NCBI RefSeq assembly: GCF_022179465.1
Contig: NZ_BPQV01000006.1
Coordinates: forward strand, 124,001 to 188,000
Origin: Methylobacterium organophilum
GTDB lineage: Bacteria > Pseudomonadota > Alphaproteobacteria > Rhizobiales > Beijerinckiaceae
Reading direction: 5' to 3'
DNA length: 64,000 nt
Positions 16,948 through 32,315 of the stretch are shown one piece after another (the stretch's first letter is position 1; every line of letters begins with the position of its first letter). A program made the position numbers and the translations under genes. The notes under the pieces were generated by a model. The model did not search any database. It saw only the letters and a program-made list of their open reading frames with translations, and was not told where the DNA came from.

Positions 16948-17589
16948 CTGTTTACAGGCACAGAACACGTGCTCACCTCGTCCCGAATGAGATCGAGCGT
17001 GGCTTGGGGCCGTCCCGGCGCGGCCTTGCGAGAATTTTGAGATTTTGGGTTCCGAAACCCGCATTTCGGCGCTGTTTCAGCGCCGGTGGAGATTCGGCGG
17101 CAGACCAACGATCAGCGATCGGACATCCGATTTAAGCGAAGCAGATCAGTAACTTATCTGCCATCCGAAACTGCCTTCCGTGGGCATCGAAATAGTGCCC
17201 AGATGGCAATCAATGTTCCATCCCTAAACAATGGGCTCTAATGGCTTCAGTGCCTTAGCCGGATTTTTGAGGGAAACCTTGCGAGACGGTCCCTCGCATG
17301 CCTGGCCCTCGGGCCGGCGAACGGGAAACGACTACCGTCAACGTCCTTTATAGGCGATCCGAAGCCTGTTGTCATTCTTGCCGGAGGCAATCGGTTCGAG
17401 CAACGACCCAACCGCCGGGAGATCGCGGCCGGCATTCCCACCCGGCGTGTTGCCGGCCGGGTACGCGGCCACGCCGACCGCGGTGATACCCCTTCGCCAA
17501 GTCGAGCAGCCCGCGACGGTTCAAACACGTCCCACGCCTTGCCGAGGGCATGGCGGGGCTCGGGCGCCAGGGTCGGGAAGGGTTCTCAG
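16945..17589. other. non-coding region with hairpins before the Gabija-like operon
   Basis: No convincing gene. Three perfect short inverted repeats are visible: TGCCTG-ttta-CAGGCA (16945-16960), GGGTT/AACCC (17047-17060) and GGCGCTG-ttt-CAGCGCC (17068-17084). The remainder must hold the promoter of the downstream nuclease-helicase operon, but no clear -35/-10 pair stands out. Confidence 0.45.
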
Positions 17590-19407
17590 GTGCTAATCTC
17601 GAAAATCAGAATCCGGAATTTCGCGAACTTCGCCGACTTCGAGATCGAGACCGGCCAGAACGTCGTGGTGGTCGGGGAGAACAAGGTCGGGAAGAGCAAC
17701 CTGCTCTTCGCGCTGCAGCTGATCCTGGATCCGGGCCTGTCAGAGCGCGACCGCCGGCTCGGCCTAGAGCACTTCTGGGACGGGCTCGGGGACCACAAAC
17801 TCGGCGCGACCATCGAGATCTCCGTCGAGTTCACCGACTTCGATGCCGACACGCGCCTCATGGCGCACCTCGCCGATTGCCTGGTCGATCCCGGGCCGCC
17901 CATGGTCGCGCGTCTCACCTACCTCTTCCAGCCGAAGGCCTCGGTGGGAGGAACGCCGGCGAGCCTCGCCGACTACGAGTACGTCGTGTTCGGGGGAGAC
18001 GATCCGGATAACGCCGTCGGACCCGGCCTGCGCCGCATGTTGCCGCTGGACCTACTTCCGGCCTTGCGGGATGCCGAGAAGGATCTCGCCAACTGGCGCA
18101 GGTCGCCGTTGAGACCCCTAATCGAGAACCTCGCCGGCACGCTGGCCGAGGCCGACCGCGAGGCGATCCAGGCCGCGGTCGACGATGCCCAGCGGGCGCT
18201 GTCGGGACGTCCTGAGGTCGGCGGCGTGGCCCAAACCATCAGCGACCGCCTGGCAGGCATGGTGGGGCCCGCGCACGCCACGTCGGTCGCCCTTGGGCTG
18301 GCGCCGACGCGACTGGACGCGCTGCTGCGCGCCCTGCGCCTGCTCATCGACCAGGGCGCGCGCGGCGTCGCGGACGCGAGCCTGGGAACCGCCAACCTCG
18401 TCTTCCTCGCCCTCAAGAGCCTGGAGCTCGACCGGCTGATCGAGGAGGACGAGCGCGACTTCACCTTCCTGGCGGTCGAGGAGCCCGAGGCGCACCTGCA
18501 CCCGCATGTGCAGCGGCTGGTCTACCGGCACTTCCTCGATGCCGCCGAGACCGCCGCCAAGGCCGGTGGCGGCGAGCCGGGCCCCAAGGATGTCCCTTCG
18601 ACCGGTCGTCTTGTCACGATCCTGACGACCCACTCACCGCATATCGCGAGCATCGCCCCCCTGAGGTCGATCGTGCTGCTGCGCCGGCAGGCGGACGGCG
18701 GGACGCGCGGCGTGTCGACGGCCAAGATCGCGCTGGCCCCCGAGGAGGTGGACGATCTCCAGCGCTACATCGACGTCACGCGCGGCGAGCTGTTCTTTGC
18801 CCGCGGCGTGATCCTCGTCGAGGGCGACGCCGAACGGTTCCTGATCCCGGCCTTCGCCGAGGCGCTCGGCATCCGTCTCGACGAACTCGGGATCTCGGTC
18901 TGCTCGGTCAGCGGCACCAACTTCGCACCATACGTGAAGCTGCTGGGACAGGCCGGATTGAAGATCCCGTACGTCGTGCTGACCGACCGCGACGTGCTCA
19001 GCGACGGACGGGTGCTGGGGCAGGGTCGCGTGATCAGGCTTCTCAAGATCCTGCGACCGGGCTTCGATCCCGCCGGCATGGGCGACGCCGACCTGTTCCT
19101 GGAGGGGGAGCGGGAAGGCATCTACGTCAACGCCAACACCCTGGAACCAGAGCTGTTCGCAACGCCGATGCGCCACGAGATGGTCAGCGTGATCAAGGCG
19201 GAGCTGCCCGTCATCCCGGCCACGCTGGCGAAGCTCGACGCCTGGGAGGCCGATCCGTCAAAGCTGGAGGTCGGACCGCTCATCGCGTTAATCGAGCGCG
19301 TCGGCAAAGGACGCTTCGCGCAGCGGATCGCCCCCGCCGTCGACGCCGACCGGTGCCCCGCCTACATTCGCGCCGCCCTGGAGCGTATCCGCGATGCGAT
19401 CGCGTAG
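17590..19407 (+). CDS. gajA: Gabija GajA-like OLD-family ATPase/TOPRIM nuclease
   Basis: Protein of 605 residues with an N-terminal ABC-type ATPase (Walker A GENKVGKS at 29-36; Walker B-like AVEEPEAHLHPH near residue 300). A C-terminal TOPRIM nuclease follows (GVILVEGDAERFLIPAFAEAL, then VVLTDRDV). These are class-2 OLD nuclease marks. The next gene is a UvrD-like helicase, the arrangement of the Gabija anti-phage system, in which GajA nicks DNA when nucleotide levels fall. The start is GTG 17590, where the OLD N terminus (LISKIRIRNFANF) begins, with a GGGAAGGG ribosome site. A plain OLD-UvrD pair outside Gabija remains possible. Confidence 0.85.
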   Translation: MLISKIRIRNFANFADFEIETGQNVVVVGENKVGKSNLLFALQLILDPGLSERDRRLGLEHFWDGLGDHKLGATIEISVEFTDFDADTRLMAHLADCLVDPGPPMVARLTYLFQPKASVGGTPASLADYEYVVFGGDDPDNAVGPGLRRMLPLDLLPALRDAEKDLANWRRSPLRPLIENLAGTLAEADREAIQAAVDDAQRALSGRPEVGGVAQTISDRLAGMVGPAHATSVALGLAPTRLDALLRALRLLIDQGARGVADASLGTANLVFLALKSLELDRLIEEDERDFTFLAVEEPEAHLHPHVQRLVYRHFLDAAETAAKAGGGEPGPKDVPSTGRLVTILTTHSPHIASIAPLRSIVLLRRQADGGTRGVSTAKIALAPEEVDDLQRYIDVTRGELFFARGVILVEGDAERFLIPAFAEALGIRLDELGISVCSVSGTNFAPYVKLLGQAGLKIPYVVLTDRDVLSDGRVLGQGRVIRLLKILRPGFDPAGMGDADLFLEGEREGIYVNANTLEPELFATPMRHEMVSVIKAELPVIPATLAKLDAWEADPSKLEVGPLIALIERVGKGRFAQRIAPAVDADRCPAYIRAALERIRDAIA

Positions 19408-21214
19408 CACGAGCGCGGCCTACCTCCGGCACGTGGGGGACCTCGCCGGAAACCCGGGACAGCAGGCGGCCTACGATTCCGAAGGCCACTGCGTGGTCCT
19501 CGCCGGACCGGGCTCCGGCAAGACGAAGACGCTCGTCCTGAAGCTGGCGCGCATGCTCGCCGAGGACGTGCGCGCGCCGCAGGGCGTCGCCTGCATCACC
19601 TACAGCACGGAATGCGCCCGCGAGCTCAAGCGCCGCCTTGAGCGGCTCGGTCTCAGGGAAGCGCCGAACCTCTTTGTCGGGACGGTGCACGGGTTCTGCC
19701 TGCGCCACGTCCTGATGCCCTACGGCCGCCTCGCCGGCCTCGACCTTCCGCATCCCCTGGTCCTCGCCACGACGGGTCAGGTCAAGGACACCTTCAGGCG
19801 CGTGGCCGAGGCGCTCTTCGGCATCGGCCAGCCCTACAAGCTGGATGAGATGGGCAAGTACCGTCGTGTTCACCTTGACCGGGACGCCCCGGGGTGGAGC
19901 GCCGATCCCGACCTCGCCCGTCTATGCGAAGGGTACGAGGCCGCGCTGCGCCGGCAGGGCCTGATCGACTACGACGACATGGTCGTTTGCGCTAACCGCC
20001 TGATCGGCGCGCATGATTGGGTCCTGCCGGCGATCGCCGCCCGATGGCCGATCCTCGCCGTCGACGAGTACCAGGATCTCGGACTAGCCTTGCATCGCAT
20101 CGTGATGCGGCTCGCCTTCGAGGGAGGGGTCCGGCTGTTCGCCGTGGGCGACGCGGACCAGGCGGTCTACGGCTTCACCGGGACGGACGGCGGCCTGTTC
20201 CATCACTTGGCGGAGCGCCACGATGTCGAGACGGTTCGCCTGGAACTCAACTACCGGTCCGGCGGCCGCATCATCGAGGCCTCGGAATATGCGCTCGGCG
20301 AGGTGCGTGGCTACCGACCGCATGACACGGAGCGGCTCGCGACGGTGCGGTTCGTCGAGCGCCCTGGCGGCCTTGAGGATCAGGCCGCCCACATCGTCGA
20401 GACGCTGATCCCGGAGGCGCTGGCGGCGAAGCCGGGCCGCGTTCCCGGCGACATCGCGATCCTGTATCGCGCGGCCACGGTCGGAGACGTGTTCGCGGAC
20501 GCGCTCGCGGCGGCCGGCATGGACTTCGTCCGGATCGACACCGCGGCTCCCTACAAGAAGGTCGAGCTGACGAGCTGGGTCGAGGATTGCGCGGCCTGGT
20601 GCTCGGGCGGTTGGCGGAAAGCCCGGCCTCAACTGGGCGGCCTGCTGTCCCGCTGGATCGGCTTTCGCGCCGGACGCGCGAGCGAGCAGGAAGCGAACCG
20701 GACCAGGCGCGCGGTCACGGCCTTCCTGATGGCGCATCGCCGGGATGACGGTCCCGCCGCCCCGTTCATCGCGGCGATCCGTCAATCCCTGCTGGACCCG
20801 CTGGGACTGGCGGAGCCGAGCCTGGCGGACCAGATCGAGCAGGTCCAGCGGATGAGCGTGGCCGTCGCGCCCGGCGGCAAGCTCGAAGGACTGGATCTCG
20901 TCAGCCTCGGCGGACGGGACGGTTCGCCCTCGCACGTGAACTTGCTGACGCTGCACTCCTCGAAAGGCTGCGAGTACGACGTGGTCATCATGGTCGGGAT
21001 GGATCAGGGCATGATGCCCTGGGCGAAGGAGAAGGAGGCCGAACTCAAGGAAAGCCGCCGTCTCTTCTACGTCGGGCTCACGAGGGCTCGCGATGCCGTC
21101 CATCTCCTTTATTCCGGATGGTTTCGAGACCGTTATGGTCCGAGGTCGCTCGGCCGATCCACTTTCGTCAAGGAGTTGGAGGACCGTCTCGTGGCAGCCG
21201 AACAGGCTCGATAG
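19394..21214 (+). CDS. gajB: Gabija GajB-like UvrD/Rep helicase
   Basis: Superfamily-1 helicase of 606 residues. Motif I is LAGPGSGKTKT near residue 35, motif II is AVDEYQDL, motif III is VGDADQAVYGFTG, and later motifs include LHSSKGCEYDVV and LFYVGLTRARDAVHLL. Its ATG lies inside the end of the upstream nuclease gene (14-bp overlap), so the two are translationally coupled. In Gabija, GajB consumes nucleotides and partners GajA in phage defence; that role is inferred from pairing. Length and motif set are normal for GajB-like proteins. Confidence 0.86.
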   Translation: MRSRSTSAAYLRHVGDLAGNPGQQAAYDSEGHCVVLAGPGSGKTKTLVLKLARMLAEDVRAPQGVACITYSTECARELKRRLERLGLREAPNLFVGTVHGFCLRHVLMPYGRLAGLDLPHPLVLATTGQVKDTFRRVAEALFGIGQPYKLDEMGKYRRVHLDRDAPGWSADPDLARLCEGYEAALRRQGLIDYDDMVVCANRLIGAHDWVLPAIAARWPILAVDEYQDLGLALHRIVMRLAFEGGVRLFAVGDADQAVYGFTGTDGGLFHHLAERHDVETVRLELNYRSGGRIIEASEYALGEVRGYRPHDTERLATVRFVERPGGLEDQAAHIVETLIPEALAAKPGRVPGDIAILYRAATVGDVFADALAAAGMDFVRIDTAAPYKKVELTSWVEDCAAWCSGGWRKARPQLGGLLSRWIGFRAGRASEQEANRTRRAVTAFLMAHRRDDGPAAPFIAAIRQSLLDPLGLAEPSLADQIEQVQRMSVAVAPGGKLEGLDLVSLGGRDGSPSHVNLLTLHSSKGCEYDVVIMVGMDQGMMPWAKEKEAELKESRRLFYVGLTRARDAVHLLYSGWFRDRYGPRSLGRSTFVKELEDRLVAAEQAR

Positions 21215-21289: not shown

Positions 21290-22429
21290 CTAGGCGGCCA
21301 GCTTTTCATCGACCTCCTCGACCCCCGGGGCCATGCTGGCCTGGGCCTTGGCGACCAGGTCCCCGTGTGCCGCCTCCGCCGCCTTCATGGCGATCGAGAC
21401 GTCATCGGGCAGGATGTGGACGTAGTGCTTCATGGTGATCACCACGGTGGCGTGGCCGAGGAACTTGGACACGGCCGCGATATTCCCGGTGGCCCGGTAC
21501 ATCCGCGCCCCGGCCGACCGCCGCAGATCGTGGATCACGAGGTCCGCGATCCCGGCCCGCTCGGCCGCCGTCTTGAACGCCCCGTAGAAGCCGCTCGACG
21601 TGATCGGCTTCACCACGACCCCCTTCTTCGTCCTCTGCCGATAGGTGAAGACGAAGTCGGTCGGATTGTCGATGTTGGCCCGGATGATCCTGTCGATCGC
21701 CGGGGTGATCGGGAGCTCCAGAAGCTTCTTTTCCCCCTTGGCCTTCACCCACACCCTGATGCGTCCCTCCTCCAGAAACACCTCGCTCTTCCTGAGCAGC
21801 GCGCTCTCGCGCCGGAGGCCGGACCGGAGGATGAACTCCACCAGGCCCCGGTAGTCCCCGCACTCCGGCAGGAGCATGAGTTCCTCCCGGATCGACAGCT
21901 CCCGGGTCCGGGCGTAGGGCTCCCCAAAATACATCGAGATCTTCGGCATGTCCGGAAGCGGGATCTTCCAGACGTCGATGGCCCAGTTCCGGAGCGCGGA
22001 GAGGGGGCGGAGCACGCTCTGGGTAATCGTGCCCGCCCTGACCGGCCCGTACTTGGGATCGTCCCACCGGCACATCCGCCTCCGCTTCTCGACGACGGCG
22101 GCGATGGTGCCGGCATTGATCTCGCTCAGCTTGGTGTCGGGCCCGATCTGCTCGACGAGCCAGTCCAGGTCCCGGTCGCGATACGGGACGCGACCGTTCT
22201 GCTGGGCCTTCTCCTTCGTGAGGCGGTCGACCGCATCCAGCATGGTCATGTCGCGACCGCGCAGGGCGCCGTGCATGTCGACCTTTCTCTTCTCGGCGGC
22301 CTTCCAGCGCCTCTCGAAGGCGAGCGCGTCCCGCTCGTTCGTCAGCTTGGTCGGCCCGCTGAACCGCTGCCCCTTCACCACGAAGGAGCAGTAGTAGAAG
22401 GAGGAGTCCTTCGGCTTCCAGACGGTCAT
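21290..22429 (-). CDS. tyrosine site-specific integrase
   Basis: Phage-type integrase of 379 residues. An N-terminal arm/SAM-like part is followed by a catalytic domain with Arg in RSGLRRESALL, His/Arg in VIHDLRRSAG, GHATVVITMKHY and the nucleophilic Tyr in that last stretch. All catalytic positions are present, so it is probably active. It lies 1 bp after an excisionase-like HTH gene, forming an int-xis operon. It marks one edge of an integrated element that probably brought in the neighbouring defence genes. No attachment site could be recognised next to it. Confidence 0.92.
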   Translation of the reverse strand: MTVWKPKDSSFYYCSFVVKGQRFSGPTKLTNERDALAFERRWKAAEKRKVDMHGALRGRDMTMLDAVDRLTKEKAQQNGRVPYRDRDLDWLVEQIGPDTKLSEINAGTIAAVVEKRRRMCRWDDPKYGPVRAGTITQSVLRPLSALRNWAIDVWKIPLPDMPKISMYFGEPYARTRELSIREELMLLPECGDYRGLVEFILRSGLRRESALLRKSEVFLEEGRIRVWVKAKGEKKLLELPITPAIDRIIRANIDNPTDFVFTYRQRTKKGVVVKPITSSGFYGAFKTAAERAGIADLVIHDLRRSAGARMYRATGNIAAVSKFLGHATVVITMKHYVHILPDDVSIAMKAAEAAHGDLVAKAQASMAPGVEEVDEKLAA

Positions 22430-23448: not shown

Positions 23449-23701
23449 CGCGGTCCTCCGGCCAGGGTTCGGGATCCCGTCGATCCGCGTAGGACGTGAC
23501 GCGAATGGACGACCGAGGCAGCGCCTGCCGATCCGCGAGGATCCGGGCCCGGTGCTCGGCCTCGCGGTGGGCCGCGACGCCGAGCGTCTGGAGGACGTCG
23601 CGCAGCGTCCGGTCGAGCGCCGTCTCGCCCAGCTCCAGCCGCATGATCGACAGACGGCGAAAGACCTCGCCGACGCGGGCATCGGTGTCATCGCGCATCA
23701 T
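23441..23701 (-). CDS. small helical protein coupled to the FtsH-like protease
   Basis: Protein of 86 residues (MMRDDTDARVGEVFRRLSIMRLELGE...), mostly charged and helical, with no recognised family. Its start lies 14 bp inside the 3' end of the AAA+ protease gene, indicating translational coupling. It could be an adaptor, substrate or inhibitor of the protease; this is inferred from linkage only. The frame is open further upstream, but that part has no protein-like character. Confidence 0.6.
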   Translation of the reverse strand: MMRDDTDARVGEVFRRLSIMRLELGETALDRTLRDVLQTLGVAAHREAEHRARILADRQALPRSSIRVTSYADRRDPEPWPEDRDA

Positions 23702-25715
23702 GGCCTCCCCGGATGGCGGGCAGGCCCCGCCGCTGATGGATCTGGATGAGCCGGGAGACCTCCTCCCCCGACAGGACACGCTGCTCCACGAGCCGGTCGG
23801 CGACGGCCTCGATGAGGGTCCGGTGTTCCCGCACGAAGGCCTGCGCCTTCGCGTAGAGCCGCTGCAGGTCCTGCTCCACGGTGCGGCGGAATGCCGCATC
23901 TTCCCGCAGGGCGCGGGCGATCTCCTCGGTGCTGCCGCCGCGATGGATCAGGGTTTCGCCCAGTCCTTGGGCGCCGTGCAGCACCGCCACCTGCGCGGTT
24001 GCGCGTGAGAGGTCGGACCCGTGCGGGCCGCCCGCCCCCGAGTTCGGTACGCCGCCGAGGGCATCCATCGCCCGGCCCGCGAGCGCCACGATCGTGAGCG
24101 CCTCCGATTGCGCCCGCGTCAGGATCGTCCGAGGGTGGAGGGCCGCCCGGGTCCTGCCGGCGCTGTCCCGCCCCATGGCGATCGTCACCGAGCGGACCTC
24201 ACCGGCACCGAGGACCTGAACGGCGACCGCGTGCGCCGCCTCATGGCATGCGCAGACGCGGACCTCCTCCGGCGTTCGGTCGTCCGGCGGAGCGATCTCA
24301 AGGACGAGGTCCGGCAGGATCATCCGCCGCCCCTCCGCCCTGGCCCGGGAGCGCGCTCCCTTCACCCAGGCCGCCACGTCCGCGCCGGTCGCACCGGCCG
24401 CGAGATGCGCGACCCCGGTGAGGTCATGCTCCGCGAGGTCCGGCCCGAGCTTCTCGCGGAAGATGCCGACGAGCTCCGCGGCGGTGGGCCGCTCGATCCG
24501 GACGACGGGATGCAGTCGGCCTGGCCGGATCAGGGCCGGGTCGAGGGCACCGAGGTGGTTCGTCGCGCCGATGACGATGAGCTTGGACGCGTACGGAGAG
24601 GAATTCGTCTCAAGTGCGGTTAGCATATATTCGATGATGGGGGGCCAAAAATCTCTAGCTCTATTGTCCAGAGTGACTCTACTTGGGATGGACTCGGTCT
24701 CGTCGATGAACAGGATGGCCGGTCCCTTCGCGAATGCGCGCTGGAAACTTTGCTCGGCTGCGCGAAGGGCCCCGCCGAGATACCCGTCGCTGCCCTGGAA
24801 CCAGCCGGCGACAGAGGTCGTGACCAGGGGCAGGCGCGCCGCCTTGGCGATCGCCCGCACGAGCGTGGTCTTGCCCAGGCCGGGTTCCGAATGGAGCATC
24901 AGCGCCCTGGGCACGTCCTCCCACTTGAGGGTATTCTGCCTCCATGCGTCGACGGCCCGGACGAGGGCCTGGGCGTGGGCCATCGCCTCTCCGAAGCCGT
25001 GAAGCTGCTCCAGGGCCGGGACGTCGGTGCCGAGCGCGTCCGTGCGGTCGAGCGCCGCTTCGGCGGCCCGGATTCGGGCGACGACGGCGCGCGGGGTGCT
25101 GCCGACCCTGATGCAGCTCGCCAGCGTGTCGAAATCGAGCGCGCCGGCGAGGCCCGGAGGCAGGCGCCGGGGCCGCTTGCCCGTGGCCTCCCGGATGGCT
25201 GCGGCCAGGACCCGGTTCGAGGGCGGTCCCAGCCTCACGTAGAGATCGGCCGCGGCGACGAGCGTCGCCGGAAGGTAACGCGTCGGCGCCTGGCTTACCC
25301 CTGCGACGCGCGCGCCCTCGCTCAGGAGCCTTCCGACCCGGTCGTTACCCTCTGTCGTCTTGTCTTGGCTCTTCGAAGCGCCGGTTCTGGTCCAGATAAA
25401 GGCCCATTCGGATAGCTCGCGAAGTGCCGCCTCAATGTGCGTAGCCCAATCTGGGCTGGGCACCTCGACGACGAGCGCGAAGCCGCCGCCCTCGCGCAGG
25501 CGGCGGAGGCCGGCCGCGCCGAGCGCCTCGGCGAGCGCCGCCCGCGGGAGCGTATGGCGGGCGGGGCGCAGGCCGCCGATGCATGCCGCCAGGAGGCTGT
25601 CGTCCGTCGCGGCGTAGGTCTGCCCGTCGAGGGGATCCAGGGGATCGAGGGGATCGATGTCGGGTGGCGGCCGGCGTCGGCCGACGAGGCGCTGCTTGGG
25701 GGTGTCCGTGGTCAT
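23688..25715 (-). CDS. FtsH-like AAA+ zinc metalloprotease without membrane anchor
   Basis: Protein of 675 residues. The N-terminal 260 residues are unassigned and carry a DPLDPLDPLDG repeat. The AAA+ module has Walker A EPGLGKTT (277-284), Walker B LFIDET (335-340) and ATNHLGALDPALIRPGR, as in FtsH. A peptidase M41 domain follows with HEAAH (491-495) and Asp568 in HGSDLSRAT as third zinc ligand. Both active sites look intact. Unlike FtsH it shows no N-terminal transmembrane helices, so it is probably soluble. The start chosen is MTTDTPKQR; eleven more codons upstream are possible. Its place in a mobile region suggests a conflict-related protease, with target unknown. Confidence 0.85.
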   Translation of the reverse strand: MTTDTPKQRLVGRRRPPPDIDPLDPLDPLDGQTYAATDDSLLAACIGGLRPARHTLPRAALAEALGAAGLRRLREGGGFALVVEVPSPDWATHIEAALRELSEWAFIWTRTGASKSQDKTTEGNDRVGRLLSEGARVAGVSQAPTRYLPATLVAAADLYVRLGPPSNRVLAAAIREATGKRPRRLPPGLAGALDFDTLASCIRVGSTPRAVVARIRAAEAALDRTDALGTDVPALEQLHGFGEAMAHAQALVRAVDAWRQNTLKWEDVPRALMLHSEPGLGKTTLVRAIAKAARLPLVTTSVAGWFQGSDGYLGGALRAAEQSFQRAFAKGPAILFIDETESIPSRVTLDNRARDFWPPIIEYMLTALETNSSPYASKLIVIGATNHLGALDPALIRPGRLHPVVRIERPTAAELVGIFREKLGPDLAEHDLTGVAHLAAGATGADVAAWVKGARSRARAEGRRMILPDLVLEIAPPDDRTPEEVRVCACHEAAHAVAVQVLGAGEVRSVTIAMGRDSAGRTRAALHPRTILTRAQSEALTIVALAGRAMDALGGVPNSGAGGPHGSDLSRATAQVAVLHGAQGLGETLIHRGGSTEEIARALREDAAFRRTVEQDLQRLYAKAQAFVREHRTLIEAVADRLVEQRVLSGEEVSRLIQIHQRRGLPAIRGGHDAR

Positions 25716-26395
25716 GGCTGCCTCCATGCGCGAGGCAGCCGGCCGCAAGCGCGGGCGGTCAGGCCTCGGAGGGGATCGGGTCGATGCGATGAGAGCGGCG
25801 CCGGACGGCTATGCCGACGGGGGCCGGGGGCGGGCAGGAACGCCGGCGTATCGCCCGTTTAGGGGTGCGCTGGTGCATCGGGAGGCCTCTGGGGCTGGGG
25901 ACCGCCCGAGCGTCAGCTACGAGGGCGGTGTAGGAACTCCGGCAGGTGGCGGGAGCGCTGAGAGCGCCGTCGAGGCGCAGGGAAACGGATACAGAACCCG
26001 TGGAATTCCCGTCAACCGCCGCGCAACACCGGGCCGCGGAAATTTCCCTGGGCGGTGGAAAGCGGGGACCACGGCGATACGGTTAATCGGGAGGTAACCA
26101 TTGGCGTGGCGCGCCCTCCGGCTTTCCGGAAAGCACGTATCGCCGCCCGTCACCCGCCCCCGCCTCCTGTCCGGAACCTGCGCCGAATTCGCATACGACC
26201 GATTCGGCGCCAGCCTGCCCCGCGACCTGCATCCTCGCCTTCCTGAGGCTGCCTCGCTCGGTGCCTGGCTTGGCCGATGGAGGAAGCCGCCACATTTCGC
26301 GGCAAACGCGGACTGCGTCCGGTCGCCCCGGTGGCGCGTACTGCAGGCGCAATCTAAGCTTTAGAAAAGGCGAAGGGCGGGCCAGCAGCGGATCC
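25716..26395. other. non-coding gap, nothing recognised
   Basis: 680 bp between the divergent AAA+ protease and SMC-like operons. Short frames on both strands have no protein-like character. Promoters for both directions must lie here, but no operator or riboswitch was recognised. Confidence 0.4.
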
Positions 26396-27028
26396 ATGGC
26401 GAAGGCGGATTACCATCGGAACGCGCTGCGCATCCTGTTCATCCTGACACGAGGCAGCCGGCCGGTCCCCGATGCCGGGGTGGAGGGGTTCGACCGCGTG
26501 TTCACCGGCGAGAGCCGGGTCCATGCCCTCGACTTCTGGATGCGCTACCCGGACTACCTCGCCGACGAGCTCCTGACCCTGTTCGAGGCGACGGGCGATC
26601 CGTCCTACCTCGACGAGGCACGTCGGATCTTCGACCAGGAAGAGCCGGACCTGCGCCGGGTGCCGATGCTGCGGTTCTACTTCGGCGCCTACGAGCCCCT
26701 GGACACGGTGCTGGGTATCCTCAAGTCGCGGGGTCTGGTCCTGCCGCGCTCGCGCGTCACCGCCATGGGCCGCAAGGGCCACGAGTTTCTCGTCTCGCCG
26801 AGAGCGGTGGAGTTGCTGGACCGCATGGTTGCCGAGTTGCCTCCTCTCGGCTGGTACGAGGACCGCGTCGCGCTGGTCCTGAAGGTCGCGGGAAGCCGGG
26901 GCGGCTTCACGCTCAAGACCCGCCAGCATGAGCGGCGGGAGTACCATGACACGAAGGTCGACGATCTCATCCCGACCACCGCCGGACGGGTCCGCCGTCG
27001 TCTCGAAACGATCCTGGAGAAGGCATGA
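26396..27028 (+). CDS. small first component of the SMC-like ATPase/nuclease operon
   Basis: Protein of 210 residues, no family recognised with certainty. It contains ALDFWMRYPDYLADELL, helical repeats, and a C-terminal winged-helix-like part ending in basic TTAGRVRRRLETILEKA. Its stop overlaps the next start (ATGA), so it is coupled to the ATPase gene. Position and size resemble the middle component of ABC three-component conflict systems or the small subunit of SMC complexes; this is an analogy. The start is ATG 26396 because upstream codons are not protein-like. Confidence 0.72.
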   Translation: MAKADYHRNALRILFILTRGSRPVPDAGVEGFDRVFTGESRVHALDFWMRYPDYLADELLTLFEATGDPSYLDEARRIFDQEEPDLRRVPMLRFYFGAYEPLDTVLGILKSRGLVLPRSRVTAMGRKGHEFLVSPRAVELLDRMVAELPPLGWYEDRVALVLKVAGSRGGFTLKTRQHERREYHDTKVDDLIPTTAGRVRRRLETILEKA

Positions 27029-28980
27029 TGTCGGGTGACGGCGCGCAGGACGGCCCGGACGCCTTGCTGGCCGCCATCGCGGGGAAATGCGGCCGCTCCG
27101 TCGAGGACACGCGCTCGGTGCTGACGCGCCACGGGGTGGGCATCACGCGAAGCCTCGCCGTTCCCAAGCGTCTTTGCCTGCGCTCGCTTCGGTTCTCCGG
27201 GGAGAAGAAGGGAGGGAAGGCCGCGGGCACGATCGCGTTCAACTGGCCCGAGATCGGCCCCGGGATCTGGGGCATCACCAGCGGACGCAACCTTCGCGGC
27301 AAGTCCACGGTGCTCGGGATCATCCGCTGGTGCCTGACCGGCAAGCGGAGCGGGATCCCGGCCGAGATGGCCGAGTGGTTCGCGGCGGTGCGCCTGACCT
27401 TCACGCTCGACAACGAACTGTACGAGGTCGAGATCGCGGACGCCGTCGCGGTGAGGGGCACCCTGTGGCGAGGCGTCGACGATGCCCGCCGGGCCCAGGC
27501 GACCTTCGGTTCCGAGGACGGCTTCAAGGCCGCGATGTCGGACCTGTTCATGATGCAGCTGGGGCTCTCGCCGCTCGTCACGCACACGGTCCGGCCGACC
27601 GGCGAGAGCCTGGACCAGCCCCACGACTGGGCGTTCTTCGCCGGGGCGATGTCGATCGATCCCAATCCGGAATATCTCTTCGGCACCGTCGCGATGTCGG
27701 CCCTGCCGACGCGGATGATGCAGATGTTCCTGGGTATCCCCTGGACGAGCACGAATGCCGACCTCGTCGCCGCCAAGGGGCGGCTCCGGAACCAGGCGAC
27801 GCAGAACCGCGCCTTCGCCAAGGGCGTCGCGGAGCGACGCAAGGACCGGATCGAGGCCTTGGGGAAAGCCGTTGCGGCTGCCGAGGCGGAGCTTCGTACG
27901 CTTCACACGCCGGCCGCGGACAGGGCGGCGCTTGCCGTCGCCAACCAGGCGTATGCCGAGCTTGAGGCGCGCCGTCGGGCGGCGGAGGCGAAGCTCGCCG
28001 CGGTTGAGGCCGATGTCGCAGCGGCCTCCGAGGCGGCGGCGCACGCGGGGCGGCTCCTGCAAGACTTCACCGACGACCGCGCCGCCGGCATGGTGTTCCG
28101 TGCCCTCGAACCGGTGTGCTGCCCGCGCTGCGACGAGGTGTTCGCCGAGGATCGGCGCGCGGCCACGCGGGACGAGCAAACCTGCGTGGTGTGCCGCACC
28201 GTGGAGGCGCCGGAGCAGGATCCGTCCGAGGCCGAGGAGAGGTTGCGGGCCGCTGCCGATCTTGCCGCGGGCGAACTGTCCTACCAGCGTACGCTGCTGC
28301 GGTTGGCGAGGGAGGCGTTGGGGAGCGCCGAGACGGCGAGCAAGGACGCCGAGAAGGTTTGCGCCGGGATCGAGGCTCGGCTTGCCGCGCCCTCGCGGCG
28401 AACCGAGCTGGAAGCGGAGCTCATCGGGAACAAGGCGCGCTTGGAGGAGCTGGACGCGGAGGGCGAGGTCTCGTCCGGGCAGGACGACGACGGCTCGGTC
28501 ATCGAGGCCGCGCTGGCCGTCGTCGAGGACGCCTTCAAGCCTCTTCAGGAGAGCGTGCTGAAGGAGGTCTCCGGCCTGATCCTCGAATACGCCGTGCTGT
28601 TCGGCGTCGAGAACCTGGAGGAGACGAAGCTGTCCGGGAACACCACCCTTCGGCTCGTCAAGGCCGGGGTGCGTACGTCCTTCGGGAGCCAGACGGCCGG
28701 CGAGAGGGCGCGATTGAAGATTGCGGCCACGCTTGCGATCATCACCGTGGCGGAGCGTCGTGGGGTCGGGCGCCATCCCGGCCTCCTGCTGATCGACTCC
28801 CCCGGGGCGAACGAGATGGTGGCTCAGGACTACGACAAGCTGGTCGCCGGCCTCGCTGGCCTCCCGGCGGAGTTCCGGCACCTCCAGGTGTTCGTCGCCG
28901 CGGTCGAGAGCCCGACCATCCGGGAGCACATCCCGGAGAGGCATCGGAAGCGCGCGGTCGGCGACGATTATCTCTGGTAG
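27025..28980 (+). CDS. SMC/ABC-type ATPase with zinc hook
   Basis: Protein of 651 residues with an SMC/Rad50-like plan. An N-terminal half-ATPase has Walker A GRNLRGKST (87-95). A coiled coil (about 265-350) leads to a zinc hook with Cys366-x2-Cys369 and Cys387-x2-Cys390. A second coiled coil (about 400-480) returns to a C-terminal half with a signature-like SQTAGERARLKIA (555-567) and Walker B LLLIDSPG (587-594). The arms are far shorter than in true SMC. It is coupled by ATGA to the upstream gene and followed 5 bp later by a nuclease gene. Lamassu (LmuB) and ABC three-component systems use similar ATPases. It probably senses DNA structure and controls the nuclease. Confidence 0.86.
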   Translation: MMSGDGAQDGPDALLAAIAGKCGRSVEDTRSVLTRHGVGITRSLAVPKRLCLRSLRFSGEKKGGKAAGTIAFNWPEIGPGIWGITSGRNLRGKSTVLGIIRWCLTGKRSGIPAEMAEWFAAVRLTFTLDNELYEVEIADAVAVRGTLWRGVDDARRAQATFGSEDGFKAAMSDLFMMQLGLSPLVTHTVRPTGESLDQPHDWAFFAGAMSIDPNPEYLFGTVAMSALPTRMMQMFLGIPWTSTNADLVAAKGRLRNQATQNRAFAKGVAERRKDRIEALGKAVAAAEAELRTLHTPAADRAALAVANQAYAELEARRRAAEAKLAAVEADVAAASEAAAHAGRLLQDFTDDRAAGMVFRALEPVCCPRCDEVFAEDRRAATRDEQTCVVCRTVEAPEQDPSEAEERLRAAADLAAGELSYQRTLLRLAREALGSAETASKDAEKVCAGIEARLAAPSRRTELEAELIGNKARLEELDAEGEVSSGQDDDGSVIEAALAVVEDAFKPLQESVLKEVSGLILEYAVLFGVENLEETKLSGNTTLRLVKAGVRTSFGSQTAGERARLKIAATLAIITVAERRGVGRHPGLLLIDSPGANEMVAQDYDKLVAGLAGLPAEFRHLQVFVAAVESPTIREHIPERHRKRAVGDDYLW

Positions 28981-28985
28981 CGGCC

Positions 28986-31208
28986 ATGCATGCCCTGGAA
29001 CGAGGCATGGCCGACCTCCTCTCGGCCGGCCGTCGACCGCGGCTCGCCGATTTCGGGGGCCTGGACGGGGTCGTCGCCGAGGCCGCGACGCTGTCCGGGT
29101 CGCCCTTCGCTCCCGACTTCCTTGCCGTCGTGCTCGATGGCGCCGACCGCGAGGATGCCGCGGCCTGGACGTTCGTGTCCGCCCTGGCGGCCCGCCCGCG
29201 CGACGACCTGGCCCTGAACGGCATGGTCGACGCGATCGCGGAGCGTGCCCCGCTAGCGGACGACGCGGAGCGCACCTGCTTCGCGTCGTGGCTCGACATC
29301 GCCCGCGACCGCGAGCGCCCGGCGAGCCTTCGGACGGCCGCCCTGCGCGGCGCGCTCCTGATGAAGGGGACGGATCCCCGCAGGGGGGCGAGGCTGGCCG
29401 GCGAGATCGCGGCGATCGAGCCGGATGACGAGGCCTCGTACATCGCCCACGCGGCGCGGATCGGCGGCCTGTTGCATGCCGAGGCCCCCAGTCCCGGCGT
29501 GACCGCCTTCCTCGAAGACGCGGCGAGGGTGGACGGCGCCGCGGACGAGGCCTCGTTCGAGCTCGGCATGATCGAGGTGCGGGAGATCTTCGCGGCCGCC
29601 GACCCGGGATCGGCGAGGGAGCGGATCCGGGCCGCCCGCGTCCGGTTCGAGCGTGCGATCTCCGAGAGGGGAGCCCGATCCGACGCCCACGTGCTCTCGC
29701 TGTCGCTCGGCCTCCTCGCCGACTTCGAGGAAGGGCATCCCGCCGGCCTGAGGGAGCGCCTGCGCGAGGTCGAGCGGGAGGCGTTCGCCCATGCGGAGTA
29801 CGCAGCCTACGAAGACGGCTTCCTGTCGGGAGCCCGGAAGACGGCGGTCGCAGCCTGGGCCTCCCTGGCGCTTCGTCTCGGGGCACTCACGGAGAGCCTG
29901 GAGGAGCCCTCCTGGAACGAGGCTCGTAGGGTCATCGAAGAGGAGCTTCTGGCGGTCTACTCGGCGAGCCGCTCCATCTTCAGGATGGGCGCGGACGGAG
30001 GCCTCGAATGGCTGGTCAGGCCCCGGATCGAACGCTTCGTCCGCACCACGGCAGGGCAACTCCACCATCTCCGGCGATGGCTTGCCGTTGCCGGCGAAGC
30101 CCGGCTCGGCGACGAGGCACGGAGGTTGATCGCACGGATCGACGAGGCCCTGACGGGGGTCCCGGCGCCGGACCCTCATGACGCGGCAGCCGCGAGCCCC
30201 TCGGTTGCCGCTTTCCTGGAGGGCGCGCGGATACCGCACGAGGTCAGCAGGCGCATCGCCGCGCAGTTCGTGAGCGACACGAACAGCGTCGAGCTGAACG
30301 AGATGTCCCCGAAGATCGAGGAGGCCCTCGCCCGGACGGAGTTCACCTTCGCGCAGATACCGGATTACGCGGAAGACCGACGGGTCCAGTGCATCCTGAG
30401 GGCAGTCATCTGGCAGACCTTCCTGTTCCTGGAGAGCCGGCTCGATGCCACCGTCGGGCAGGATCCGACGGTGGAGTACCTGTTCGCCATTCCGGGGCGG
30501 GACGATCCGGCCGAGAAGGACCTGCAACAGGATTACCTGCGACACCTGCAGACGAGGAAGCTGGGGTCGCTCGACGAGGTCAGGGGCGTGGGCGGCGGCC
30601 GATCCGACGTCTGGCACAGCCTGCAGGGCGTCCGCTTCATCACGGAGGTCAAGAAGGAGACCGAGGACGCGTCGTTCGAGGCCCTGCAAGCGGCTTACGG
30701 CGACCAGGCGAGCATGTACGGGACGACGAACGTTCCGATCGCCATCCTCCTGGTCCTGGACCTAACGACGCGGGAGGGACGCGCGGATCACCTGTCAAAG
30801 CTCTACCGACCGGTCACGGGCGATTTCTTTGGCGACGACACGCAACGGGGCTTGTTGATCATCCGTGTCCCGGCCCGTCGTATCGCCCCGAGCGCCCGAA
30901 CCGTTGCGGCCAAGCGAGCGAACCCCGTGCGGCGAACGGCGTCGAAGAAGAGGGGCCTCCGTCCCCGTCGTCCAAGGAAGGCCGGCTCGCCGTCAAGAGC
31001 GATGCAGCGGCAAGGGGAGGCAACCGGGGATCCGAAGCCGTCAGGGAGCCGGCGCAACCCCTCTCGGCCGGATGGTCCTGGCCTTGGGCCCGTGTCCCAC
31101 CCCTTAGGCGGAGAGGCGCGGCCCCCGACGCTGACCGCTGGCCCACGTGCCGTCTTGTCGACGCTCGATGAGCGCAAAATACGGACAGCGCGTCTCTGCC
31201 TCAGGTAG
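28986..31208 (+). CDS. large effector protein with C-terminal PD-(D/E)XK nuclease domain
   Basis: Protein of 740 residues. The N-terminal 450 residues are alpha-helical, alanine- and glutamate-rich, perhaps a repeat scaffold. The C-terminal domain shows a restriction-endonuclease-like pattern: Glu510 in AEKDLQQDY, Asp541 in GGGRSDVWH, and Glu554-x-Lys556 in FITEVKKE, followed by YGDQASMYG and a hydrophobic strand AILLVLDLT. After about residue 640 the protein becomes a basic low-complexity tail that overlaps the convergent gene by 105 bp, so translation may in effect end earlier in relatives. It lies 5 bp after the SMC-like ATPase and is its likely nuclease effector. Confidence 0.82.
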   Translation: MHALERGMADLLSAGRRPRLADFGGLDGVVAEAATLSGSPFAPDFLAVVLDGADREDAAAWTFVSALAARPRDDLALNGMVDAIAERAPLADDAERTCFASWLDIARDRERPASLRTAALRGALLMKGTDPRRGARLAGEIAAIEPDDEASYIAHAARIGGLLHAEAPSPGVTAFLEDAARVDGAADEASFELGMIEVREIFAAADPGSARERIRAARVRFERAISERGARSDAHVLSLSLGLLADFEEGHPAGLRERLREVEREAFAHAEYAAYEDGFLSGARKTAVAAWASLALRLGALTESLEEPSWNEARRVIEEELLAVYSASRSIFRMGADGGLEWLVRPRIERFVRTTAGQLHHLRRWLAVAGEARLGDEARRLIARIDEALTGVPAPDPHDAAAASPSVAAFLEGARIPHEVSRRIAAQFVSDTNSVELNEMSPKIEEALARTEFTFAQIPDYAEDRRVQCILRAVIWQTFLFLESRLDATVGQDPTVEYLFAIPGRDDPAEKDLQQDYLRHLQTRKLGSLDEVRGVGGGRSDVWHSLQGVRFITEVKKETEDASFEALQAAYGDQASMYGTTNVPIAILLVLDLTTREGRADHLSKLYRPVTGDFFGDDTQRGLLIIRVPARRIAPSARTVAAKRANPVRRTASKKRGLRPRRPRKAGSPSRAMQRQGEATGDPKPSGSRRNPSRPDGPGLGPVSHPLGGEARPPTLTAGPRAVLSTLDERKIRTARLCLR

Positions 31209-32315
31209 CTTGACGTTCAAACGGTCGAGGTACTTCGCCTGAAAAGAGGCCATGGAGCGCGCCCGGAAGCTCATGTTTTCAAGGGACGGCCCCGTAACGA
31301 GGTTCGCCGACCCCGAGAACACCTCGCATCCCGCCTCCGAGAGCCCGGCATAGACCTTAGCGTGGAAGCCCTGCTTGCGGATGTTGGCGCCGATGAGCTG
31401 GTTCCCGAGGCCGTATCTTGAGAGCTCGGCCTGATCGAGGCCTTCCACCTCCGCCAGCACCTTCCTGTAGTCGTTGAACGAGGCCCCTCGCGTCACGAAC
31501 ACCGATTTCCCCGGATCCAGGATCGAGAGGATCGCCTCCCAGGCATCCAGTTTCTGGGCCGGTTTGAGGTGCTGGTGCCCGACGAAAGGGACGGTCACGA
31601 GGATGCGGTCCATGGTGAGGTGCCACCGGATCGCGAGCTTGTGCAGGATGTCCAGCGCCTCCTTCTTCGTGAACAGCCCGTCGACGGTCTCGGGCAGGTC
31701 GGAGCCCGTGACGTCGGCGAGGAGGAACTCCTCGACGGGCTGGGGTTGTCCGTTCCAGGCGAACTTTGCGTAGAAGGTCGCTCGATGACCGTTGCCGCAG
31801 GAGCATGGGACGCCGACGTGGGCGACGACATGCTCGTACGGCGGCACCCGACCGGCTAGGCCATAGTTGATCGCGGCGCCGTAGGCGGACTGGATGCCGC
31901 CAGCTTCCGCTAACAGGGCCGCCTTGGCGGGTTGTTCAAGGTTCTGACCAGTGGCCGCGCAGACGTAGACCGGCACGGCATCGTAATCGAAGCAGTGACG
32001 GATTTCGTTCAACTTCAGATTATGCTGAATGATATCGGTGGCTAGGGCTGCCCTGTCACCCTCGTATCGACCGTCATGCCGCCCCGCGATGAAGTACCCT
32101 GCTCCTGATTCTCTCGGGTTGATCACCGGTATCACGAAGCGCTTCGAGCATGAGTGGCAGTCGAGTTCCCACCAACCCTCGTCATTCTCCGCGGTGAACC
32201 TCACCTCCGTGTAAGGGTGCGGGTGCCCGCAGTGCCGACACCTCGCGACCTTTTCGCGGCTGCTGTGGATCATGTCGCGATCTTCGTCCGATGCCGAGAA
32301 TCTGAAACATTCCAA
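31104..32315 (-). CDS. zinc-ribbon protein with phospholipase-D-like C-terminal domain
   Basis: Protein of 403 residues. The N-terminal part has two CxxC pairs (RCRHCGH and DCHSCSKRF) forming a zinc ribbon and a further CSCGNGH. The C-terminal part has FHAKVYAG followed by EVFSGSANLV, the HxK-(x)n-GSxN pattern of phospholipase-D-like nucleases. It is convergent with the SMC/nuclease operon, and the 3' ends overlap by 105 bp. PLD-like proteins with zinc ribbons often act in restriction or defence, so a nuclease role is plausible. Only one HxK half is visible, so a dimer would be needed for activity. Confidence 0.78.
   Translation of the reverse strand: MECFRFSASDEDRDMIHSSREKVARCRHCGHPHPYTEVRFTAENDEGWWELDCHSCSKRFVIPVINPRESGAGYFIAGRHDGRYEGDRAALATDIIQHNLKLNEIRHCFDYDAVPVYVCAATGQNLEQPAKAALLAEAGGIQSAYGAAINYGLAGRVPPYEHVVAHVGVPCSCGNGHRATFYAKFAWNGQPQPVEEFLLADVTGSDLPETVDGLFTKKEALDILHKLAIRWHLTMDRILVTVPFVGHQHLKPAQKLDAWEAILSILDPGKSVFVTRGASFNDYRKVLAEVEGLDQAELSRYGLGNQLIGANIRKQGFHAKVYAGLSEAGCEVFSGSANLVTGPSLENMSFRARSMASFQAKYLDRLNVKLPEAETRCPYFALIERRQDGTWASGQRRGPRLSA

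Follow-up and report, generated by a model that had tools for sequence, protein, structure and literature searches.

The window analysed here, a stretch of 64,000 nucleotides of the Methylobacterium organophilum genome (contig NZ_BPQV01000006.1, positions 124,001 to 188,000), contains a three-gene operon, lmuC-lmuB-lmuA, at positions 26396 to 31208, which as judged from its protein sequences belongs to a divergent clade of Lamassu (ABC-3C) systems. Probably, this operon employs a programmed −1 frameshift resembling that of dnaX, by which lmuA would give both a nuclease-bearing and a nuclease-free LmuA. The proposal builds on the gene content, homology, conserved residues, slip motifs and a covarying hairpin, as well as on five relatives in which the nuclease lies out of frame. 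If the signal in the linker of lmuA works, the operon is out of the ordinary, while by itself, without this signal, it would be an unremarkable addition to a known family. The genes, and the parts of lmuA that surround the proposed signal, are as follows.

26396-27028 (+): lmuC (gene 1), 210 aa; PADLOC LmuC PDLC03872, 8.9e-85
27025-28980 (+): lmuB (gene 2), SMC/Rad50-like ATPase, 651 aa; PADLOC LmuB PDLC03864, 2.2e-182
28986-31208 (+): lmuA (gene 3), 740 aa, with helical scaffold, linker, predicted PD-(D/E)XK nuclease and tail; PADLOC LmuA PDLC03853, 6.9e-166
28986-30167 (+): all-helical scaffold of LmuA, residues 1-394, modelled as helices only, with a block predicted local distance difference test (pLDDT) score of 82-98 to residue 390
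30173-30176 (+): C_CCT, proposed −1 slip site at Pro397
30183-30211 (+): hairpin with a 10-bp stem, 30183-30192 with 30202-30211, starting 6 nt after the slip codon
30312-30905 (+): predicted nuclease domain of LmuA, residues ~443-640, recognized by invariant residues and a predicted helix-strand-strand-strand-helix-strand order

Slip motifs and a hairpin in the lmuA linker

The scaffold of LmuA is followed by a linker (residues 395-405) of low model confidence (pLDDT <50). In-frame heptamers of the form V_VVA_AAR, mostly G_GGA_AAA and in some cases C_CCA_AAA, were found within the linker of 32 genes out of 102 that are unsplit and distinct. This set was obtained from 115 gene-3 loci by excluding seven redundant loci, the five split genes and L067, in which the frame stops after the linker; the window is not among the 102. 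Within-gene synonymous codon shuffling gave a mean of 3.25 linker heptamers, with a maximum of 10 in 1000 shuffles, and outside the linker only 9 heptamers were found in 62,948 codons. In the unsplit genes that carry a heptamer, the 0 frame continues into the nuclease, and a −1 slip reaches a stop after 1-24 codons.

A second motif, the tetramer C_CCT, was counted after a slightly stricter redundancy filter, which left 101 loci (32 with a heptamer and 69 without). It occurs within the linker in 38 of the 69 unsplit relatives that lack V_VVA_AAR, and in 11 of these 38 it forms part of A_AAC_CCT; elsewhere in the 69 genes, CCT preceded by C accounts for 73 of 1670 proline codons. The window carries the tetramer only and no heptamer. 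Its −1 reading at the slip site is CCC TCA TGA, with the stop at 30179-30181 and a predicted product of 398 aa. According to the part of a survey of −1 motifs drawn on here, C_CC.U is one of the six tetramers that clearly exceeded background in E. coli in combination with a pseudoknot stimulator (PMC4066793). An in-frame slip motif at the conserved place is present in the split genes described below, the heptamer genes and the C_CCT genes alike.

The surroundings of the site also favour a −1 slip. Once the window had been added (102 genes in this and the following analysis), 17 of 39 C_CCT genes, the window included, and 5 of 32 heptamer genes had a −1 stop no more than two codons from the site, while 2.26 and 1.44, respectively, were expected from the same genes. 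As +1 stops near the site were not enriched (3 in C_CCT genes with 2.31 expected, none in heptamer genes with 1.35 expected), a +1 frameshift was rejected. Clustering of the 102 genes at 40% identity resulted in 20 clusters, of which 13 are wholly signal-bearing, 4 are mixed and 3 are single genes without the signal, which is found in 17 of the 20.

The hairpin of the window scores z −2.44 against dinucleotide shuffles, 3 of 200 being as low. Among the 38 C_CCT relatives, 30 show z < −1.64 against synonymous shuffles (mean −2.18), and in 29 the segment falls in the lowest 5% of windows of its own gene; for the 32 heptamer genes the corresponding numbers are 18 (mean −1.55) and 23. Covariation was assessed in 34 rows, namely 33 distinct sequences from the 38 genes plus the window, and in 26 of these picked by eye for a gap-free hairpin. 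In the 26 rows, 90.7% of cells pair, with 37 double changes versus 8.3 in shuffles and a score of 0.321 versus 0.134 (slid controls ≤0.112); in all 34 rows, 83.3% of cells pair, with 54 double changes versus 18.0 and a score of 0.383 versus 0.181 (slid controls ≤0.186). The pairing percentage, double changes and score were reached by 0 of 500 shuffles in either row set, the shuffles being of a kind that does not remove relatedness and the slid controls of a kind that keeps it. RNAalifold recovered the stem unprompted from the 26 rows. The downstream structure is a family-level signal, seen in both folding and covariation, and is mixed for the split genes.

In an unlikely alternative, the operon is an ordinary Lamassu system with one LmuA protein, and the hairpin and C_CCT result from coding constraint, GC-rich codon bias and shared descent or have some other function, for instance pausing translation so that the scaffold can fold ahead of the nuclease. 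Several observations weigh in its favour and against frameshifting. The window hairpin is weak when compared with synonymous shuffles (z −1.08, p 0.136) and ranks 29 of 589 windows of the gene; because it is only moderately unusual, the case for a frameshift in the window depends mainly on conservation in the family. As a slip motif, C_CCU in the absence of a heptamer is weak, and in the part of the survey concerned the six tetramers ranged from 0.26% to 5.6% with a pseudoknot, C_CC.U being near the low end (PMC4066793). Neither motif occurs in 31 of the 102 genes. One cluster of 19, all Streptomyces among the eight members listed, has C_CCT in a single gene and neither motif in the other 18, so that the signal, for all its presence in most clusters, is widespread and not universal. 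Shared descent can keep codons similar, and the related rows used for covariation are not independent; pairs changed on both sides were reached by 1 (26 rows) and 7 (34 rows) of the 500 shuffles, further pair types by 14 and 0, respectively, and 8 heptamer genes (of 31 distinct heptamer rows) fold to a conserved stem without double changes. A single LmuA protein is nevertheless difficult to reconcile with the excess of linker heptamers over synonymous shuffling of the same genes, with covariation exceeding both shuffles and slid controls, with the enrichment of −1 but not +1 stops beside the site, or with slip motifs of differing sequence at the same place, which is also where the nuclease goes out of frame in five relatives.

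Relatives with the nuclease out of frame

A profile search of genome contigs yielded 111 loci, the best 80 of which were kept and underlie all 80-locus counts given here. In 5 of these 80, lmuA is broken at the scaffold/nuclease boundary, and the open reading frame (ORF) of the nuclease is in the −1 frame. The five loci, three of them from metagenome-assembled genomes (MAGs), are the following.

L072: Rhodopseudomonas MAG
L075: Massilia kyonggiensis
L076: a MAG
L084: Pseudovibrio denitrificans
L092: Pelagibius MAG

In each, the 0-frame stop lies 0-9 codons past one or more X_XXY_YYZ heptamers, which are the sole such heptamers in those 0-frame ORFs. The sites read G_GGA_AAA TAG; G_GGA_AAG CAC TAG; C_CCA_AAA with A_AAA_AAA; C_CCA_AAA with A_AAA_AAG, then CAC TAG; and A_AAA_AAG CTC TGA. 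The consulted part of the E. coli survey gives C_CC.A_AA.G, G_GG.A_AA.G and A_AA.A_AA.G as the most efficient −1 motifs and places V_VV.A_AA.R among the efficient classes (PMC4066793). By stability, the 42 nt downstream of the five sites rank 10/194, 2/187, 1/180, 0/83 and 5/188 among windows of the same gene.

Sequencing errors or gene decay, with slippery runs as the places where errors fall, would be an improbable explanation of the five split genes, despite a number of points that speak for it and count against a programmed signal. L084 has two further frame breaks, while L076 stops near a contig end and has Glu at the D541 position; indels favour homopolymer runs; and the folding downstream of the site does not exceed that of dinucleotide shuffles in four of the five genes (L076, with z −2.7, is the exception). 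Frame breaks also occur in lmuB of 4 of the 80 loci, and because three of these four are likewise −1, the −1 direction is not special and was dropped as evidence. Moreover, no new split gene was found among 199 and 201 relatives of two split-gene genomes. Against errors or decay, L072, L075 and L092, from separate organisms, each have a single break at the same boundary and retain G-R-x-D and E-x-K in the −1 ORF. Two of the sites are G_GGA_AAR, not long homopolymers, and heptamers of the same kind are retained by unsplit genes. In a quick LmuB tree of 77 rows, which carried long-branch warnings, four of the five split loci form one group with a Shimodaira-Hasegawa-like approximate likelihood-ratio test (SH-aLRT) value of 100, the fifth standing apart on a long branch.

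Two forms of LmuA could also arise by transcriptional slippage or internal re-initiation, which is considered quite improbable. The A_AAA_AAG and C_CCA_AAA sites do contain runs of 4-7 A, and the split genes have TTG, GTG or ATG codons downstream. In its usual description, however, polymerase slippage needs longer runs than those in G_GGA_AAR or C_CCU, and a hairpin 6 nt downstream of the slip site, as here, is the usual arrangement in ribosomal frameshifting. Ribosomal frameshifting, if it is the process at work, also has a practical consequence, as gene callers may split or mis-call lmuA of the split type, and such systems may be missed or taken as broken.

The operon, its proteins and its surroundings

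The original prediction, made from the sequence alone, described a tightly coupled three-gene operon, and its coordinates were confirmed: lmuC and lmuB overlap by 4 nt (ATGA), an overlap retained in 16 of 20 relatives measured (with start codons assigned by script), and a 5-nt gap separates lmuB from lmuA. A lmuA relative follows lmuB in 80/80 loci, and all three genes occur in the order C-B-A in 78, the remaining two, without gene 1, ending at a contig edge. The PADLOC LmuB model spans residues 12-651 and the LmuA model protein residues 1-639; matches over most of the length, together with the C-B-A order in the relatives, indicate real genes rather than chance ORFs. Scans of all three proteins against Pfam and NCBIfam gave nothing above the cut-offs, and GH127, DksA and AAA_23, whose matches fell below them, were rejected as identities.

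Since PADLOC names all three proteins, the operon is assigned to Lamassu. The resemblance to Lamassu and ABC-3C systems pointed out in the original prediction is thereby upheld, while its view that no known system could be named is not, as the Lamassu models match all three proteins strongly; the comparison with hidden Markov models clearly assigns them as LmuC, LmuB and LmuA, and an unknown system was rejected. The likely role in defence that it suggested is supported by these sequence matches. The predicted C-terminal nuclease, the four-Cys motif and the Ser in Walker B set the operon apart as a distinct Lamassu variant at the level of sequence. The features of LmuB are listed below with their conservation in an alignment of 23 rows, subsets of which (16/23, 18/23 and 15/21 rows, after removal of near copies and broken genes) were used elsewhere.

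27271-27306 (+): Walker A region (GITSGRNLRGKS, K93), K93 in 22/22 covering rows
28120-28194 (+): four-Cys motif C366PRC369...C387VVC390 between the coiled-coil halves, presumed zinc-binding, each Cys in 23/23 rows
28699-28800 (+): ABC signature G559-E560 to Walker B D591-S592, S592 in 22/22 covering rows

LmuB was correctly recognized from the outset as an SMC-like ATPase, as its PADLOC match confirms. In its Walker B motif, Ser592 takes the place of the expected catalytic Glu in all 22 covering rows; the search behind the 80 loci used a pattern containing this Ser, and its conservation in those loci was not counted as evidence. A Cys motif lies in the coiled coil, as had been noted, whereas its description as a Rad50-like zinc hook was imprecise. 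The Rad50 zinc hook is a single CxxC per chain, and a single hook of this kind was rejected for LmuB, which has two pairs (C366-x2-C369 and C387-x2-C390) and hence four ligands available in one chain. When compared with solved structures, the LmuB profile showed a weak match to the Rad50 chain 3aux (E 0.0017), and nothing better was obtained in these sequence searches, the other low matches being mostly coiled coils or chance.

For LmuC, the AlphaFold model has a pLDDT of 91.3 and a winged-helix-like look suggested by weak matches. The fold search gave no match with E at or below 0.001, the best being 3elk, a putative transcriptional regulator (E 0.033), followed by PadR-family chains.

The remaining features of LmuA concern its predicted active site and C-terminus.

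30606-30608 (+): D541
30645-30647 (+): E554
30651-30653 (+): K556
30906-31205 (+): C-terminal tail, poorly conserved and probably disordered for the most part

LmuA fits the PD-(D/E)XK group by its D...(D/E)xK residues and alpha-beta core and is a predicted nuclease. E510, E531, G538, R539, D541, E554, K556, Q574 and Y578 are invariant in 58/58 rows (57 of 74 unsplit gene-3 rows plus the window), D541, E554 and K556 also in the 23 rows of the smaller alignment; in the model, D541, E554, K556 and Q574 are placed within the alpha/beta core as in PD-(D/E)XK enzymes. The D541/E554-x-K556 core on a helical scaffold proposed earlier is borne out by these residues, which homologues have not lost, and by the all-helical scaffold of the model. 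The C-terminal position of the domain also stands, with the correction that the last ~100 residues (~641-740) form a weakly conserved tail, in which the PADLOC match stops at 639 and pLDDT is <50 from residue 670; the LmuA of Methylobacterium aquaticum ends differently. The nuclease domain has no Pfam match at all and, at an E threshold of 0.001, no fold match either; the fold search with LmuA returned generic helical repeats only, again none reaching that threshold.

Of 398 genomes of the phylum, 7 contain LmuB matches, one of the 7 being the window's own 5.06-Mb assembly, which has a single match; among 72,556 plasmid records there are 36 with a match, 25 from Streptomyces. Of the relatives found, the nearest is carried by a megaplasmid of Methylobacterium aquaticum (LmuB 96.3% and LmuA 92.6% identity); Alpha-, Beta- and Gammaproteobacteria, Actinomycetota, Acidobacteriota and one Verrucomicrobiota MAG are among the hosts. 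An SMC system serving DNA repair or plasmid maintenance, as opposed to defence, would be consistent with the weak likeness of LmuB to Rad50 and with the plasmid-borne relatives; it is considered very improbable in view of the strong Lamassu models for all three proteins, the patchy presence in the phylum and the GajB-type and integrase-family genes nearby. Carriage by phages was rejected, as none of 50,697 phage records has an LmuB match, though three contigs of the viral collection IMG/VR (L111-L113) carry the operon, L111 with an in-frame stop in lmuC; by virtue of these contigs, the operon may ride on prophages.

On plasmids of Roseovarius (L011, with a frame-broken LmuB) and Phaeobacter (L015), typed conjugative and mobilizable, the operon adjoins type IV secretion genes. 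Two Streptomyces plasmids carry deviating forms. In that of S. longwoodensis (L140, 4947-8900), a short LmuC-like gene precedes an LmuB-like protein of >1300 residues, the last ~730 of which are unmatched by the gene-2 or gene-3 models; in that of Streptomyces sp. NBC_01445 (L136, 3465-5606), a protein matches the LmuA model in the nuclease domain only, and the stretch retrieved has no LmuB match.

Upstream of the operon in the window are a Gabija GajB-type UvrD helicase (19394-21214, +; PADLOC 3.8e-225) and a phage-integrase-family protein (21290-22429, −), which place the operon near other defence and mobile genes. The helicase gene is immediately preceded by an ORF at 17539-19407, where GajA would be expected. 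An AAA+ protein (23688-25748, −) has a C-terminus resembling FtsH-type M41 peptidases, with a score just below the Pfam cut-off, and is similar in part to IetA/TRIP13 models (best 2.8e-14). Convergent with lmuA, a 403-aa protein (31104-32315, −) contains several CxxC-type motifs and shows a weak ZacB match (1.2e-05) and no Pfam match at E up to 0.001.

Proposed mechanism and comparison with known systems

At rest, LmuB, with its four-Cys motif at the coiled-coil tip, and LmuC would hold LmuA. LmuB may then sense abnormal DNA, such as ends or hairpins from phage or plasmid replication, upon which LmuA would be released, assemble via its helical scaffold and cut DNA with the C-terminal PD-(D/E)XK domain, halting the infection or killing the cell; DNA-structure sensing by LmuB and abortive infection are carried over from other Lamassu systems, as treated in the part of a review used here (PMC10586767). 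The −1 signal at the scaffold/nuclease boundary, consisting of the slip site (C_CCU in the window) and the hairpin, would be passed by most ribosomes, which make full LmuA, while a fraction slip, read Ser and stop, leaving the nuclease-free 398-aa scaffold. In the split group the short form would be the default, and in the other signal-bearing relatives the long form. Ribosomal slipping and the ratio of products, the function of the short form, and sensing and killing are what we infer.

The tau and gamma forms of DnaX mix in one complex. The two forms of LmuA might similarly do so, limiting the nuclease dose or capping premature assembly until activation. In other Lamassu, LmuA is released and forms a tetramer on activation, according to the portion of PMC12409362 consulted; nuclease-free LmuA could therefore take up positions in the resting complex or the tetramer and thereby set a threshold. 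The evidence leans towards a broader reading, in which a Lamassu clade controls its effector by programmed −1 frameshifting where scaffold and nuclease meet, using slip signals that can replace one another and both polarities, and nuclease-free LmuA sets the dose and assembly of the armed form as an immune counterpart of DnaX tau and gamma; changes in translation upon infection could then tip the ratio. How Lamassu effectors are kept from killing the healthy cell is described as unclear in the part of the review concerned (PMC10586767), and a genetically encoded nuclease-free LmuA at a fixed ratio, if true, would provide a simple means of restraint. Among the papers listed from the literature searched, which was mostly open-access and covered the structure work of 2025 incompletely, none was found to report programmed frameshifting in Lamassu, and the passages retrieved that mention both Lamassu and frameshift concern only frameshift mutations and a frameshifted transposon.

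Among known systems, Lamassu/ABC-3C (type II with lmuC; DdmABC) shares the SMC-like LmuB, the effector LmuA and the small LmuC. In E. coli, a type II system with the third gene reduced the plaquing of one phage or more, as stated in the section consulted of PMC8565338. The predicted nuclease of the window LmuA is C-terminal and its N-terminal part is scaffold, in contrast to the N-terminal effector domain described for the family, a placement that is a generalization of the review in the part consulted (PMC10586767); the PADLOC LmuA model aligns along its positions 1-653 of 655 and should therefore share the C-terminal-nuclease layout. DdmB has DUF6521, according to a passage of PMC12409362, whereas the window LmuC has no Pfam match above the cut-off. 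Replacement of the Walker B Glu is a Lamassu trait that LmuB shares, but as Ser rather than Gln; since slow hydrolysis was inferred from the Gln in the part of the review concerned (PMC10586767), the Ser by analogy suggests the same.

Rad50/SbcC proteins resemble LmuB in that a coiled coil bearing a Cys motif separates the two halves of the ABC ATPase, and Rad50 is the best sequence match of the operon among solved structures. LmuB differs in that each chain has two CxxC pairs, with which it could bind zinc by itself, and in the Walker B Ser, and no Mre11-type gene is among the three genes of the operon. Wadjet (JetABCD) likewise combines an SMC-like ATPase with a nuclease; it was rejected, as no Wadjet model is among the PADLOC matches of the three proteins at E up to 1.

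In E. coli, dnaX undergoes a programmed −1 frameshift with a slip motif, a short spacer, a downstream hairpin, and long and short products. The proposed lmuA signal is alike in all of these, its slip motifs being of the kind listed in the part of PMC4066793 drawn on, and A_AAA_AAG itself is present in two lmuA relatives. It differs in that lmuA is an immune effector gene, in that the window uses C_CCU, and in that the 0 frame gives the long form in most signal-bearing lmuA relatives and the −1 frame in five.

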